A stretch of DNA of 64,000 nt from contig NZ_QTQI01000012.1 of NCBI RefSeq assembly GCF_003853705.1, positions 1 through 64,000 on the forward strand, written 5' to 3'. A program made the translations under genes and the position numbers. The stretch comes from Burkholderia sp. Bp8992. Its GTDB lineage: Bacteria > Pseudomonadota > Gammaproteobacteria > Burkholderiales > Burkholderiaceae. The notes below the pieces were generated by a model. That model ran no database searches and had not been told where the DNA came from. It saw only the letters and a list, made by a program, of their open reading frames with translations. This document shows positions 6,222 through 12,423 of this stretch, in pieces. Each line of letters starts with the position of its first letter. Positions within the stretch are counted from its first letter, which is position 1.

Positions 6222-8501
6222 ATGAAGTTTCGTTTCCCCGTCGTCATCATCGACGAAGATTTCCGCTCCGAGAACATCTCGGGCTCCGGCATCCGGGCGT
6301 TGGCCGAAGCGATCGAGAAGGAGGGCGTCGAAGTCCTCGGCCTGACGAGCTACGGCGATCTGACGTCGTTCGCGCAGCAGTCGAGCCGCGCGTCGTGCTT
6401 CATCCTGTCGATCGACGACGACGAACTCATGCTCGGCGAGACCGGCCAGGACGGCGAACTGCCCGAGCTCGCGACCGCGATCATCGAGCTGCGCGCGTTC
6501 GTCACCGAAGTGCGCCGCCGCAACGCGGACATCCCGATCTTCCTGTACGGCGAAACGCGCACGTCGCGCCATCTGCCGAACGACATCCTGCGCGAACTGC
6601 ACGGCTTCATCCACATGTTCGAGGACACGCCGGAGTTCGTCGCGCGCCACATCATCCGTGAAGCGAAGGTCTATCTCGACTCGCTCGCGCCGCCGTTCTT
6701 CAAGGAACTCGTCAAGTACGCCGACGAAGGCTCGTACTCGTGGCACTGCCCGGGCCACTCGGGCGGCGTCGCGTTCCTGAAGAACCCGCTCGGCCAGATG
6801 TTCCACCAGTTCTTCGGCGAGAACATGCTGCGCGCGGACGTCTGCAACGCGGTGGACGAACTCGGCCAGCTGCTCGACCACACCGGCCCGGTCGCGGCAT
6901 CCGAGCGCAATGCGGCGCGCATCTTCAGCGCCGACCACCTGTTCTTCGTGACCAACGGCACGTCGACGTCGAACAAGATCGTCTGGCACGCGACCGTCGC
7001 GCCGGGCGACATCGTGCTGGTCGACCGCAACTGCCACAAGTCGATCCTGCATGCGATCACGATGACGGGCGCGATCCCCGTGTTCCTGACGCCGACGCGC
7101 AACCATTTCGGCATCATCGGGCCGATCCCGCGCGACGAATTCAAGCCGGAGAACATCCGCAAGAAGATCGAGGCGAACCCGTTCGCGCGCGAAGCGATGC
7201 GTGCGAACCCGGACATGAAGCCGCGGATTCTGACGATCACGCAGAGCACGTACGACGGCGTCGTCTACAACGTCGAGATGATCAAGGACCTGCTCGGCGA
7301 CCTGCTCGACACGCTGCACTTCGACGAAGCGTGGCTGCCGCACGCGACGTTCCACGATTTCTACCGCGACATGCACGCGATCGGCGACGGCCGTCCGCGC
7401 ACGGGCGCGCTCGTGTTCGCGACGCACTCGACGCACAAGCTGCTCGCAGGCATCTCGCAGGCGTCGCAGATCGTCGTGCAGGATTCGGAGAACCGCACGT
7501 TCGACAAGCACCGCTTCAACGAGGCGTACCTGATGCACACGTCGACGAGCCCGCAGTACGCGATCATCGCGTCGTGCGACGTCGCGGCCGCGATGATGGA
7601 GCCGCCGGGCGGCACCGCGCTCGTCGAGGAATCGATCGCCGAGGCGATCGACTTCCGCCGCGCGATGCGCAAGGTCGACGCCGAATACGGCGACGACTGG
7701 TTCTTCAGCGTATGGGGCCCGGACAGCCTGTCCGAGGAAGGCATCGGTTCGCGCGAAGACTGGATGCTGAAGCCGAACGACCACTGGCACGGCTTCGGCC
7801 CGCTCGCGGAAGGCTTCAACATGCTCGACCCGATCAAGGCGACGATCATCACGCCGGGGCTCGACGTCGACGGCGAGTTCGGCGAGACGGGCATTCCGGC
7901 CGCGATCGTCACGAAGTACCTGGCCGAGCACGGGATCATCGTCGAGAAGACCGGCCTGTACTCGTTCTTCATCATGTTCACGATCGGCATCACGAAGGGC
8001 CGCTGGAACTCGATGGTGACCGAGCTGCAGCAGTTCAAGGACGACTACGACAACAACCAGCCGCTGTGGCGCGTGCTGCCGGAATTCGTCGCGCAGCATC
8101 CGCGCTACGAGCGCGTCGGCCTGCGCGACCTGTGCACGCAGATCCACGACGTGTACCGCGCGAACGACATCGCGCGCCTGACGACGGAGATGTACCTGTC
8201 GGACATGGAGCCGGCGATGAAGCCGTCGGACGCGTTCGCGAAGCTCGCGCACCGCAAGATCGACCGCGTGCCGCTCGACGAGCTCGAAGGCCGCGTGACG
8301 AGCATCCTGCTGACGCCGTACCCGCCGGGCATTCCGTTGCTGATCCCGGGCGAGCGCTTCAACAAGACGATCGTGAACTACCTGCGGTTCGCGCGCGACT
8401 TCAACGAGCGTTTCCCGGGCTTCCACACCGACATCCACGGCCTCGTCGCGGAAGAGGTGAACGGCCGCGTCGAGTACTTCGTCGACTGCGTGCGCGACTG
8501 A
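6222..8501 (+). CDS. PLP-dependent Orn/Lys/Arg decarboxylase (fold-type I)
   Basis: A 759-residue biodegradative amino acid decarboxylase that produces a polyamine or cadaverine/agmatine and consumes a proton. An N-terminal wing domain of receiver-like fold (about 1-130, beginning VVIIDEDFRSENISGSGI) precedes the PLP domain. Visible PLP-site features are HxGHSGG-like CPGHSGG, the DEAW segment and the Schiff-base lysine in THSTHKLLAG. The C-terminal domain follows from about residue 600. Substrate (Lys, Arg or Orn) cannot be fixed from sequence; Burkholderia homologues are usually annotated as arginine or lysine decarboxylases. Its ribosome-binding site GGAGAA abuts the upstream terminator. 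Confidence 0.93.
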   Translation: MKFRFPVVIIDEDFRSENISGSGIRALAEAIEKEGVEVLGLTSYGDLTSFAQQSSRASCFILSIDDDELMLGETGQDGELPELATAIIELRAFVTEVRRRNADIPIFLYGETRTSRHLPNDILRELHGFIHMFEDTPEFVARHIIREAKVYLDSLAPPFFKELVKYADEGSYSWHCPGHSGGVAFLKNPLGQMFHQFFGENMLRADVCNAVDELGQLLDHTGPVAASERNAARIFSADHLFFVTNGTSTSNKIVWHATVAPGDIVLVDRNCHKSILHAITMTGAIPVFLTPTRNHFGIIGPIPRDEFKPENIRKKIEANPFAREAMRANPDMKPRILTITQSTYDGVVYNVEMIKDLLGDLLDTLHFDEAWLPHATFHDFYRDMHAIGDGRPRTGALVFATHSTHKLLAGISQASQIVVQDSENRTFDKHRFNEAYLMHTSTSPQYAIIASCDVAAAMMEPPGGTALVEESIAEAIDFRRAMRKVDAEYGDDWFFSVWGPDSLSEEGIGSREDWMLKPNDHWHGFGPLAEGFNMLDPIKATIITPGLDVDGEFGETGIPAAIVTKYLAEHGIIVEKTGLYSFFIMFTIGITKGRWNSMVTELQQFKDDYDNNQPLWRVLPEFVAQHPRYERVGLRDLCTQIHDVYRANDIARLTTEMYLSDMEPAMKPSDAFAKLAHRKIDRVPLDELEGRVTSILLTPYPPGIPLLIPGERFNKTIVNYLRFARDFNERFPGFHTDIHGLVAEEVNGRVEYFVDCVRD

Positions 8502-9331
8502 TGGCGACGCATGGACGAATCCGGGCGATGCGCGCGGCGCTGGCCGCGCTCGTCGTCTGGGCGGCAGGCGCGGCGGGGCTGGCAGGGTCGGGCGTCGCGC
8601 ACGCGGAAGTCGCGGCGGCCGACCCGATCGACGTCGCGATGCGGCAATGCCTTGCACGGCGCGACCGGTCGTCGCCGGCCGGCCAGATCCAGTGCATGGG
8701 CGAAGCGCAGCAGCAGTGGCAGGCAGTGATGGACGGCGCGTACCAGCGCCTGTTGAAGGATGCGCCGGCCGATGCGAAGCGCGGCTGGCAGGACAGCCAG
8801 CGCCATTGGCTCACGTGGCGCAAGGACGAAGTGCTTTTGCTGAAGGCCGTGTACGACACGACGCGCGGCACGTCGTATGCGATGTCGAGCGCCGACCTTC
8901 AGCTGCAGCCCGTGCGCGATCGCGCGCTGGCGCTGCGCGGCGCGGCGGATCGCTATGCGCCGCCGCCCGCGGCGGCCCCGGTCGCGGCCGTGAGCGGCGC
9001 GCAGGGCGGCACGAGCACGGTCCAGGCGGCGGCCACGTCGAATGCCAAGCCGGCGGCGAACGCGCCGCGCGATCCGGCCGTGCGCCGCGTGCGGCCGTGC
9101 GAACAGGACGCCGCGTGCGAGCACGCGCTGTTCGACCTGAACCGCTATTACCAGAAGCTGCGTCGCAAGATGCCGGCGCATTCGGCCGCGACGCTCGTCC
9201 GCGCGCAGCGCGCGTGGGTCGGGTTCCGCGATGCGACGGCGCCGCTCGTCGGCGAGGACGGGCGCGTCGACCTGATCGGCGCGCGCATCGCGACGATGAA
9301 GCGGCTGTCGGAGACGGCCGGCAACAAGTAA
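8501..9331 (+). CDS. Secreted protein with two LprI/DUF1311 domains
   Basis: A 276-residue exported protein whose start overlaps the decarboxylase stop by one base (TGATG), so the two are probably co-translated. A signal peptide (hydrophobic core AALVVWAAGAAGLAG, cleavage near AHA) is followed by two copies of the LprI-type domain: residues about 45-145 (QCLARR through LRGAADRY) and about 190-270 (PCEQDA through MKRLSE), joined by an Ala/Pro/Thr linker. Each has the Cys pair and the AQRAW-x-x-R signature or a variant. LprI proteins are lysozyme inhibitors, but that role is only inferred. An ATG at 8528 is an alternative start. Confidence 0.85.
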   Translation: MATHGRIRAMRAALAALVVWAAGAAGLAGSGVAHAEVAAADPIDVAMRQCLARRDRSSPAGQIQCMGEAQQQWQAVMDGAYQRLLKDAPADAKRGWQDSQRHWLTWRKDEVLLLKAVYDTTRGTSYAMSSADLQLQPVRDRALALRGAADRYAPPPAAAPVAAVSGAQGGTSTVQAAATSNAKPAANAPRDPAVRRVRPCEQDAACEHALFDLNRYYQKLRRKMPAHSAATLVRAQRAWVGFRDATAPLVGEDGRVDLIGARIATMKRLSETAGNK

Positions 9332-9378
9332 CGACCGTCGACGGCTGCGATCGTGCGGCGATGAAACGAAACGGGCAC

Positions 9379-9382
9379 CCAG
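9379..9382 (+). repeat. Target-site duplication CCAG, left copy
   Basis: CCAG directly precedes the left IS end and recurs at 10090-10093 directly after the right end. A 3-4 bp duplication is normal for IS3-family elements. Confidence 0.8.
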
Positions 9383-10089
9383 TGAACTGAACCCCAGAAG
9401 TTGGACGGTTCAGGAATGCTAGGCCAGCCGGGGCTGGGTTCTGTATTGAACAGGACTCAGCCCTTTTAGCTTCAGCCGGATACGTTCGTGGTTGTAGTAA
9501 TGGATGTACTGCTGGATACCGGCCTGCAATTGTTCGACGCTGTCGAACTCGTTCAGGTGGAAGAACTCGGCCTTGAGGGTACCAAAGAAGCTCTCTATGG
9601 CGGCGTTGTCCAGGCAGTTGCCTTTGCGTGACATGCTCTGGCGAACGGCGCGCTGATCCAGCAAGCGACGATAGGCTGGCATCTGATACTGCCAGCCCTG
9701 ATCGGAATGCAGCAACGGACGTTCGCCGCGCGTCAGCCTTGAGAAGGCCTTCTTGAGCATGCTGCTGATCAAATCGAAGCTCGCTCGGGTAGCACTGTGC
9801 CAGGCGATGATTTCGCCGTTATACAAGTGTTCCAGCGCCTCCAGCTTGAACTGTGCGCTGTACTTCACGTGCCCTTGGCGCCGTAATCCATCGGCACCAT
9901 GGCGCTTGTAGCTGGCAACCCATTGCTCCACCTGTGTGCTGCCCACCCCAAACTCTCTCGCAAGCGCTTTGTACCCTTTGTCGCCAGACAGATACCACTG
10001 CACCACTTCAAGCTTGAACCGCTCGTCGTATTTCGTCATGAAAAAACCCCAAGGGTCGGATCTATGTCCAACTCTTGGGGTTCAGTTCA
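9383..10089 (-). mobile_element. Internally deleted IS3-family (IS150-like) element, 707 bp
   Basis: Terminal inverted repeats of 24 bases begin TGAACTGAACCCCA at both ends and match at 22 of 24 positions. The ends start with TGA/TCA as in IS3 elements, and a CCAG duplication flanks the insertion. Intact relatives are about 1.2-1.5 kb, so about half is missing; the internal coding region has collapsed into one open frame on the minus strand. It probably cannot transpose on its own but could be mobilised if an intact copy supplies transposase. Confidence 0.9.
9419..10039 (-). pseudogene. IS3-family transposase, OrfA N-terminus fused to OrfB C-terminus
   Basis: The 206-residue frame joins an OrfA helix-turn-helix (residues 1-73, MTKYDERFKLEVV to LEALEH) directly to the C-terminal half of an OrfB integrase core (from LYNGEIIAWH). 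The second catalytic Asp (HSDQGWQYQ) and the Glu (ESFFGTLKAEF) remain, but the first Asp of the DDE triad, the rest of OrfA with its frameshift site and the start of OrfB are gone. The deletion kept frame, so a stable hybrid DNA-binding protein could be made. No transposase activity is expected. The element's own left and right repeats flank it. Confidence 0.88.
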
Positions 10090-10093
10090 CCAG
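10090..10093 (+). repeat. Target-site duplication CCAG, right copy
   Basis: Second copy of the CCAG that flanks the IS element (first copy at 9379-9382). Confidence 0.8.
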
Positions 10094-10130
10094 CGGTGCC
10101 CGTTTTGCTTTGTGCGGCGTGTGCTGATGC

Positions 10131-10823
10131 CTACATACGCTGCGACGTGTGCTGCAGGCCGAACCACGACGGCACGAGCGCGACCGCCTCGTCGAGCGAC
10201 GCGAGCACGTGCAGGCTCAGCGCGATGATCTCGGGTGTCGGCGCCTTCAGGTCGGGCACGGTGATGACCGATGCGCCGGCGCCGGCGGCCGACTGCGCGC
10301 CGAAGTCGCTGTCCTCGAATGCCACGCACCGGTGCGCCGGCACGCCGAGGCGTTCGGCCGCGAGCCGGTAGACGGCCGGGTCGGGCTTGCCGCGCGCGAC
10401 TTCGTCGCCGCCCGCGATCGCGCGGAAGAACGGCAGCACGCCGACCGCATCGAGCCGCGCGCGGATCACGTCGCCCGCGGACGACGACGCGACCGCGCAC
10501 GGAATGCCGGCCTGCGCGAGTGCTTCGAGCAGCGCGAGCGCGCCGGGTTTCAGCGGAAACTTCGGATGCGGCTCCGGCGCCGCGAGCTGTTCGCGCACGC
10601 GGGTGCGTACCGCGTCGAACGTATCGGGATGGCCGATCAGCCGCGCCAGGATGACCTGGCCTTCGGCGAACGAGCGGCCGACGATCTGCAGGTAGTCGGT
10701 GACGGTCAGCGCGACACCGTGCGCGTTCGACACGTCGATCCACGTGTTCATGATGGTCCGCTCTGAATCGACGAGCAGGCCGTCCATGTCGAAGAGCGCG
10801 GCGGAAAAGATCATCGGCGGCAT
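10131..10823 (-). CDS. HAD-superfamily phosphatase (beta-phosphoglucomutase/YniC-like)
   Basis: A 230-residue cytoplasmic haloacid-dehalogenase hydrolase. It has motif I DMDGLLVDSE with the nucleophile Asp, motif II ASSS, motif III Lys (GKPDPAVY) and motif IV EDSDFGAQSA. The GLLVDSE cap insertion resembles phosphoglycolate or 2-deoxyglucose-6-phosphate phosphatases. The start at 10823 (MPPMIF) or 10814 (MIF) is preferred; a longer frame would run through the argH terminator. It lies just downstream of argH on the same strand but past that terminator. Its substrate is unknown. Confidence 0.88.
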   Translation of the reverse strand: MPPMIFSAALFDMDGLLVDSERTIMNTWIDVSNAHGVALTVTDYLQIVGRSFAEGQVILARLIGHPDTFDAVRTRVREQLAAPEPHPKFPLKPGALALLEALAQAGIPCAVASSSAGDVIRARLDAVGVLPFFRAIAGGDEVARGKPDPAVYRLAAERLGVPAHRCVAFEDSDFGAQSAAGAGASVITVPDLKAPTPEIIALSLHVLASLDEAVALVPSWFGLQHTSQRM

Positions 10824-10870
10824 CCGGGAAGCAGGGCAGGCGATGGACGGCGCAACGGCCGCCCGAATGA

Positions 10871-10893
10871 AAAACGGACGCCGAAGGCGTCCG
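10871..10893 (-). terminator. Rho-independent terminator of argH
   Basis: On the minus strand GGACGCC-TTC-GGCGTCC is followed by GTTTTTC, about 20 bases past the argH stop. Confidence 0.85.
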
Positions 10894-10910
10894 TCCATGA
10901 CAGCAGGCTG

Positions 10911-12320
10911 TTACTCGCCCAGTGCGGCGCGGGCTGCCTTGACGGCCGCGCGCACCTGGTCGGGCGCGGTGCCGCCCGGATGGTTGCGGCTGGCGACCGA
11001 ACCCTCGAGCGTCAGGTAGCCGAACACGTCGTCGCCGATCAGGTGCGCGACGTTCGGCAGTTCCTGCTTCATCTCGTCGAGCGTCAGGTCGGCGAGATCG
11101 ATGCCGCGGTCGTCGCAGATCTTCACCGCGTGCGCGACGGCTTCGTGCGCATCGCGGAACGGCAAGCCGCGCTTCACGAGGTAGTCGGCGAGGTCGGTGG
11201 CGGTCGAGAAGCCCTGCAGCGCGGCCGCGCGCATCGCGTCCGGCTTCACGGTGATGCCCGCGACCATCTCGGCGAAGATCCGCAGCGTGTCGGCAACGGT
11301 GTCGACCGTGTCGAACAGCGGCTCCTTGTCTTCCTGGTTGTCCTTGTTGTACGCGAGCGGCTGGCCCTTCATCAGCGTCAGCAGCGCCATCAGGTGGCCG
11401 TTCACGCGGCCCGTCTTGCCGCGCGCGAGCTCGGGCACGTCCGGGTTCTTCTTCTGCGGCATGATCGAGCTGCCGGTGCAGAAGCGGTCGGCGATGTCGA
11501 TGAAGCCGACGCGCGGGCTCATCCACAGCACGAGTTCTTCGGAGAAGCGCGACACGTGCGTCATCACCAGAGCGGACGCCGCCGTGAATTCGATCGCGAA
11601 ATCGCGATCGGACACGGCGTCGAGCGAGTTCGCGCAGATGCCGTCGAAGCCGAGCGTCTTCGCTACTGCATGACGGTCGATCGGGTAGCTCGTGCCCGCG
11701 AGCGCGGCCGCGCCGAGCGGCAGGCGGTTCACGCGCGTACGGCAGTCGCGCATGCGTTCCGCGTCGCGCGTGAACATCTCGACGTACGCGAGCAGGTGGT
11801 GGCCGAACGTGACGGGTTGCGCGACCTGCAGGTGCGTGAAGCCCGGCATGATCGTGTCGGCATTCTGTTCCGCGAGGTCGAGCAGCGCGCCGCGCAGGTC
11901 GTTCAGCAGGCCGCCGATGCGGTCGATCTCGCCGCGCAGCCAAAGGCGGATGTCGGTCGCGACCTGGTCGTTGCGCGAGCGGCCCGTGTGCAGGCGCTTG
12001 CCGGCATCGCCGATCAGTGCGGTCAGGCGCGCCTCGATGTTCAGGTGCACGTCTTCCAGGTCGAGCTGCCATTCGAATTCGCCGCGCTCGATCTCGCCCT
12101 TGATCTGCGCCATCCCGCGTTCGATCGCGGCCAGGTCGTCGGCGCTGATGATCTTCTGCGCGGCGAGCATGTTCGCGTGCGCGAGCGAGCCGGCGATGTC
12201 GACGAGCGCGAGGCGCTTGTCGAAAAACACCGACGACGTGTAGCGCTTGACCAGTTCCGACATCGGTTCCGAGAAGCGGGCCGACCAGGCCTCGCCCTTT
12301 TTGTGCAGTTGGGACGTCAT
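10911..12320 (-). CDS. argH: Argininosuccinate lyase
   Basis: Last step of arginine synthesis: splits argininosuccinate into arginine and fumarate in the cytoplasm. The 469-residue length is typical of the homotetramer. The fumarase/aspartase-superfamily signature [12 protein letters not shown], which carries the catalytic Ser loop, is intact, as are [12 protein letters not shown] and [13 protein letters not shown]. The ATG at 12320 ([10 protein letters not shown]) is chosen over an upstream in-frame ATG because the family begins here. A TGCTAGAAT extended -10 lies about 55 bases upstream on the minus strand. Confidence 0.97.
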
Positions 12321-12373
12321 GGCGATTCTTCGAAGGGGAGTTGGGCGGCGTGCGCCGCCGAGGGAATCCTGCA

Positions 12374-12382
12374 ATTCTAGCA
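12374..12382 (-). promoter_or_regulatory. Extended -10 element ahead of argH
   Basis: The minus strand reads TGCTAGAAT, identical to the element ahead of metG. It is positioned to give a leader of about 45 bases. Confidence 0.5.
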
Positions 12383-12423
12383 TTCGCGGGCCTGCCGGCC
12401 GTGGCCCGCACGGGTCGGTCCGC

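Follow-up and report, generated by a model that had tools for sequence, protein, structure and literature searches.

An apparently IS150-like lineage of IS3-family insertion sequences (ISs) very probably inserts at the centre of short palindromes, and above all into the hairpins of intrinsic terminators. The position of one such copy in Burkholderia, the orthologous empty site in its relatives and the recurrence of this placement across many species and elements are shown in the following sections.

A terminator hairpin split by an IS3-type element

The window (64,000 nucleotides of Burkholderia sp. Bp8992, contig NZ_QTQI01000012.1) contains a gene for an Orn/Lys/Arg decarboxylase (6222-8501, + strand; Pfam OKR_DC_1, _N and _C), the stop of which overlaps by 1 base with a gene for an LprI-domain protein (lprI, 8501-9331, + strand; Pfam LprI, 2e-20). 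Convergent with lprI is a gene for a HAD-family hydrolase (10131-10898, - strand; Pfam HAD_2, Hydrolase), and beyond it on the same - strand lies an argH-like gene for argininosuccinate lyase (10911-12383; Pfam Lyase_1, ASL_C2). Direct reading revealed that an IS3-type element of 707 bp (9383-10089, - strand) with the ends TGAACTG...CAGTTCA divides a hairpin between lprI and the HAD gene. The left arm, ACGGGCACC, is located at 9371-9379 (+ strand), and its last base (9379) is at the same time the first C of the left copy of the target duplication CCAG (9379-9382). The right copy of CCAG occupies 10090-10093, and the right arm with its T-tract 10095-10106 (+ strand; GGTGCCCGT at 10095-10103, TTTT at 10103-10106). 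A repeat search gave host arms of 16 nt with 88% complementarity (9364-9379 and 10095-10110). The initial annotation had described two stem halves with a T-tail and the IS with its CCAG duplication placed between them, and this was correct to the base.

The empty site was sought by searching 65 genomes of the genus with the HAD end of the locus. All genomes gave a match, part of them weak and non-orthologous, and the best 30 loci were read. In 29 of these 30 loci the hairpin was unbroken, with the arms ACGGGCACC and GGTGCCCG separated by a loop of 3-6 nt, and a different, unrelated sequence was not encountered. In these 29 loci, the distance of the hairpin to the HAD match is 54-84 bp, and that to the lprI match 46-59 bp. 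AAAA ahead of it or TTTT behind it was present at 27 of the 29 empty sites, and AAA on the left together with TTT on the right at 25. The folding energy of one empty site is -34.7 kcal/mol (z -3.85). The hairpin had initially been assigned to the decarboxylase-LprI unit; the two gene calls were right (OKR_DC_1, LprI), but since the flanking genes are convergent and most empty sites carry tracts on both sides, it may serve the HAD gene too.

At the thirtieth locus (L052, genome G014), the same IS end adjoins the right arm of the hairpin. As in the window, the distance is 5 nt, with CTGAG as intervening bases in G014 versus CCAGC in the window, and, aligned with the window copy, the IS pieces of G014 show 0 mismatches over 76 nt and 2 over 261 nt. 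As a DNA search did not find the lprI side of the locus in G014, a shared or rearranged insertion is possible there, and we do not claim a clear independent second insertion at this hairpin. All four IS flanks read in G014 (L086-L089) start with half a terminator of the form ACGGGC, one of which is the window hairpin.

The inverted repeats of the window element lie at 9383-9406 (orfB end, + strand) and 10066-10089 (orfA end, - strand), as defined by the repeat search and the end pattern; the repeat search itself gave 25 nt with 92% complementarity, and each end pattern occurs only once within the window. Between them, a 206-aa open frame (9419-10039, - strand) matches the IS3 model NF033516 transpos_IS3 with 192.8 bits (cut-off 160) and contains the Pfam domains rve, rve_2, rve_3 and HTH_Tnp_1. 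The TG...CA ends and the CCAG duplication agree with the IS3 family as well; for the named loci described below, TG/CA is not independent evidence because it was used in their end search. Translation and comparison with relatives showed that this frame begins as OrfA and continues, without a frame shift, into the later portion of the OrfB catalytic domain. Among the full-length genus copies listed, the majority have orfA and an overlapping orfB in separate frames, and the deletion in the window copy merges both into one. Most clear-ended relatives measure 1413-1586 bp; compared with the 1455-bp relative L178, about 749 bp are lost at a junction at 9828/9829 (261/262 when counting starts at the orfA end). 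The TDVTEF stretch of the relatives is absent from the 206-aa frame, while HSDQG and IESFF are present; we take these three stretches to hold the catalytic residues, TDVTEF the first Asp. The window copy therefore lacks a complete DDE triad as a deleted copy and not as a member of another family; with its ends intact, it is probably a remnant that is no longer autonomous.

Insertion sites across the lineage

Other copies were collected in two ways. When the IS ends were searched in the 65 genus genomes, 80 regions were read, 36 of which were without a complete pair of ends (they held a single recognised end, a contig end or, in two cases, a 52-bp scar). This resulted in 45 genus sites including the window, among them three long spans (L077, 4564 bp; L083, 2655 bp; L113, 2774 bp). 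In addition, 80 named loci were found with the window protein; 4 had no ends, 19 had unclear ends or a short flank, and 3 repeated genus sites, leaving 54 sites. Their hosts include Burkholderia, Cupriavidus, Halomonas, Mesorhizobium, Acinetobacter, Kluyvera, Herbaspirillum and one Clostridia assembly. Among the 99 distinct sites, the target duplication was 3 bp at 46, 4 bp at 31 and 5 bp at 6, and 16 had none.

Each site was given a stem score. In a first version that allowed loops of up to 9 nt, 35 of the 45 genus copies scored at least 18, compared to 15.9% of 881 mispaired flanks and 5.0% of 1800 random positions. Some of the misses proved to have longer loops, and the limit of 16 used in the survey was adopted after that, with the threshold of at least 18 and with its own controls for that loop width. 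Under these settings, 80 of the 83 duplication-flanked sites reached the score (genus 36/38, other 44/45), as did 285 of 3060 positions taken at random from the same flanks (9.3%) and 756 of 2943 mispaired flanks (25.7%), the latter because the arms are alike in composition. The three exceptions were L065, L074 and L148. The arms had a median of 13 positions, mismatches allowed, and at 65 of the 80 passing sites the duplication was 0-3 nt away from both of them. An A-run on the left or a T-run on the right of at least 4 nt was present within 32 nt at 77 of the 83 sites, in comparison with 11% of random positions. The initial annotation had suggested a structural target preference on the basis of the window copy and proposed that other copies be inspected for terminator hairpins; together with the orthologous empty site, these counts strongly support that preference. 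Chance or one-off placement is rejected by the survey, and insertion into hairpins looks like a habit of the lineage, not an accident.

The position profile of the 83 sites is symmetric: 1-7 bp outside the duplication the bases are mostly G+C, and 9-13 bp out they are A on the left side and T on the right. Symmetric positions paired at a frequency of 0.604, compared to 0.418 when flank pairs were reshuffled (sd 0.012, highest 0.452 of 200). One arm sequence common to all sites was not seen. In genome G008, two groups of elements (7 and 4 sites) differed in arm sequence (permutation p 0.003), and four other comparisons between groups were not significant (p 0.10-0.20). No bias was seen in how the IS is oriented with respect to the longer tract (40 versus 35, with 21 ties, of 96 sites), so that dictation of orientation by the T-tract was rejected.

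Half of the sites without a duplication (8/16) reached the score, and our guess is that several of the 16 are rearranged. Five solitary window-like ends were inspected by eye; three adjoin half a terminator, and two (L117, L119) do not clearly do so. At L115 and L116 (positions 301-352 of each), two IS ends 4 bp apart abut as a 52-bp palindrome, which at L115 is bordered by TAAC direct repeats. Such palindromes resemble either a junction of joined IS ends that became inserted or a very small mobile scar.

Two relatives from E. coli were also considered. For ISEcB1, the six loci represent two genomic sites read, both of them intergenic and in terminator-like loops. At L241, its duplication AATT lies in the loop of AATAAAAAACCGCCGAATTTGGCGGTTTTTTATT, the sseA terminator, the uninterrupted form of which is present in K-12. 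L221 and L222, for which no duplication was scored, have a left flank unlike that of L238 and L241; in L222 and L241, ISEcB1 sits in one and the same sseA terminator, with AATG in the left flank of the former and the duplicated AATT in the latter. Like the window lineage, ISEcB1 falls in the same tree and was scored with both of the built-in terminators described below; it is nevertheless a different element, with a best match to a Burkholderia relative of 66.7% over 36% of the query. A literature search by name found no paper on ISEcB1. IS150 behaves unlike the lineage: at all 13 E. coli loci sampled, several of them at one site, the score for a short hairpin was 11 or less, and the element was not scored with both built-in terminators. 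It nonetheless lies on a long branch inside our tree, in which the IS150 group was the single IS3 subgroup represented (fork support 96/63), and by eye the end of insK can fold into a similar hairpin. A hok-type gene is annotated in the stretch at 11 of the 13 IS150 loci (L223, L225-L236), and at some IS150 sites longer-range arms, AGCCCC...GGGGCT, were seen by eye around the insertion.

Predicted terminators at the element ends

The window copy carries a predicted terminator at each end, both facing inward. The one entered from the lprI side (9430-9467, + strand; -27.2 kcal/mol, z -5.48) is antisense to the end of orfB and consists of a hairpin followed by TTTT, only four T in a row. The one entered from the HAD side (10041-10082, - strand; -26.9 kcal/mol, z -6.12) is a hairpin followed by TTTTTT and lies just ahead of the orfA start. 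The initial annotation had concluded that the insertion broke the host terminator and may allow readthrough into the IS. While the host hairpin is indeed split, readthrough is doubtful and would not be expected in view of these two predicted terminators.

Out of 105 elements, 61 are distinct at their ends. Among these 61, a terminator was predicted at the 5' end in 53, at the 3' end in 56 and at both in 53, compared to 31 of 732 internal windows. The orfB-end hairpin overlaps the codons of KLKGLSPVQYRTQ, as seen at 9419-9470 of the window and also at the 3' ends of relatives. Within it, two bases change as a pair, one at the third position of the Gly codon and the other at the first position of the codon that follows YRTQ; they are G-C in 23, A-T in 11 and C-G in 8 of 45 distinct sequences, and unpaired in 3. 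The last amino acid of orfB (P, S or A) shifts largely in step with the Gly codon. For 14 pairs of this hairpin read on the antisense strand, 94.8% of cells pair, versus 87.7% after column shuffling (highest 89.7% of 1000); on the sense strand, the same pairs give 83.5% versus 77.9% (highest 80.0%). There are 84 cells with C-A on the sense strand, which are G-U on the antisense strand, and 13 with G-T on the sense strand. The better antisense pairing, measured against a shuffling control that ignores relatedness, points to a structure maintained on the antisense strand, as would be expected of an inward-facing terminator. According to PMC2965389, ISs are known to carry 5' and 3' terminators, and the 5' ones are said there to block IS expression driven from outside.

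We then compared the presence of this pair with the type of target for distinct elements having at least one duplication-flanked copy. The pair and a terminator target occurred together in 47 elements, the pair with a target that misses the strict rule in 5, a terminator target without the pair in 3, and neither in 5 (Fisher p 0.002, kinship ignored). The copy counts of this comparison contain some sites more than once, as well as nine IS150 copies. Twenty extra regions contributed 9 entries to it and 0 to the survey; 5 of them had no ends and several others had poor ends. Some relatives without the pair occupy palindromes lacking A/T-tracts at L151, L157 and L282, and are in no clear hairpin at L283 and L287. 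L157, L282 and L283, which come from different genomes and have no built-in terminators, lie at or beside one palindrome, ATAGGTGTCCACCT...AGGTGGACACCTAT.

In a tree of 70 catalytic segments, terminator targets are widely scattered. Six rows without the pair (L106, L157, L159, L170, L282 and L287) form one weakly supported group (87/75), with L151 near it and IS150, L204, L215 and L288 elsewhere. The terminator label requires 14 changes on the tree versus a mean of 17.6 after shuffling (8/500 as low), and all four target labels require 18 versus 19.1 (33/200 as low), so that clustering by target type is modest. The association between the pair and the target is a lead, since the statistics ignore kinship. 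Judged from these sequence patterns, it is a tentative reading, a little short of evenly balanced, that a widespread IS lineage may live by terminator exchange: it would split a host terminator, supply two of its own and thereby be nearly neutral, with target choice and built-in terminators having co-evolved.

Target recognition and significance

The best-supported explanation is that a symmetric transposase complex directs insertion to the dyad of a palindrome. Strand transfer would occur close to the loop edges, so that the 3-5 bp duplication would be the loop or nearly so, and the arms and the A- and T-tracts would be left flanking the IS. The complex would read both arms of the palindrome, in duplex DNA or in an extruded hairpin, and subfamilies may prefer their own arm sequence. 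The two predicted terminators of the element would then stop both neighbouring transcripts and shield the transposase gene.

It could also be that the transposase recognises a double-stranded motif of symmetric layout (A-tract, G+C arm, centre, G+C arm, T-tract) and that hairpin formation is irrelevant. This is a serious possibility, albeit less than probable: the profile is symmetric with fixed distances, and arm sequence differs between the two element groups of G008, but the arms pair beyond what their shared composition gives upon reshuffling, and plain palindromes without tracts are targeted as well (L151, L157, L282). Because natural terminators have both features, recognition of motif and of structure are inseparable in these data. 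The tract-less palindromes also bear on a transcription-coupled process, in which the complex would be drawn to RNA polymerase that has paused or is terminating, or else to the hairpin as it emerges. Such a process would fit terminator-like sites as the main target class, but it is unlikely given these palindromes and the lack of any orientation bias relative to the longer tract.

Two other readings concern where the copies come to lie. In PMC1525189, IS1397, ISKpn1 and ISPsy8 of the IS3 family are described as inserting in REP (palindromic unit) sequences, and one palindrome is common to L157 and L282; dispersed REP-like repeats might thus be the target rather than terminators as such. We consider this very unlikely, as arm sequences vary widely between sites, A- or T-runs accompany nearly all of them, and the window hairpin is an orthologous feature of a single gene junction in all but one of the relatives' loci read. 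Finally, insertion could be random and genic copies lost, the remainder being found in intergenic DNA, where terminators abound. All sites with inspected gene context (the window and both E. coli ISEcB1 sites) are indeed between genes. Such survivorship would leave the centring of the duplication between the arms unexplained, and on this ground it is unlikely to be the sole cause. Moreover, random positions in the same flanks, not limited to intergenic DNA, seldom reach the score, and the 13 E. coli IS150 loci (fewer distinct sites) all stay far below it. Altogether, survivorship appears very improbable.

Among the papers listed in searches of open literature, without closed papers or remarks in databases, we found no report that IS3-family elements insert into the loops of terminators; one may nonetheless exist. 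Group IIC introns insert at intrinsic terminators and are retroelements with a reverse transcriptase. Unlike them, the window element encodes a DDE-type transposase. The REP-targeting elements IS1397, ISKpn1 and ISPsy8 resemble the window lineage, judged by their published description, in belonging to the IS3 family and inserting inside short palindromes; they use repetitive REP sequences, whereas the window lineage, found in many genera, mostly uses hairpins of the terminator type, the arms of which vary. Insertion at palindrome centres is already known, and here terminators would stand in for REP sequences. IS1272 of Staphylococcus likewise targets inverted repeats of varied sequence, but according to PMC5678879 it replaces the stem-loop without a duplication, whereas the window copy keeps both arms and its CCAG is duplicated. 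"Mobile attenuators", as PMC2965389 presents them, are IS-borne terminators spread almost randomly over the genome; in the lineage described here, terminators serve as the target, and the orfB-end hairpin faces inward on the antisense strand.

The preference for palindrome centres would provide an ordinary, well-defined target for a large IS group, the members of which come here mainly from Pseudomonadota, plus isolated cases from elsewhere. It would also suggest how such ISs stay harmless, and their copies would be natural markers of terminators. ISEcB1 in laboratory E. coli would offer a simple system for studying by what means a DDE transposase locates a palindrome's centre, via the sequence of the arms or via an extruded structure.
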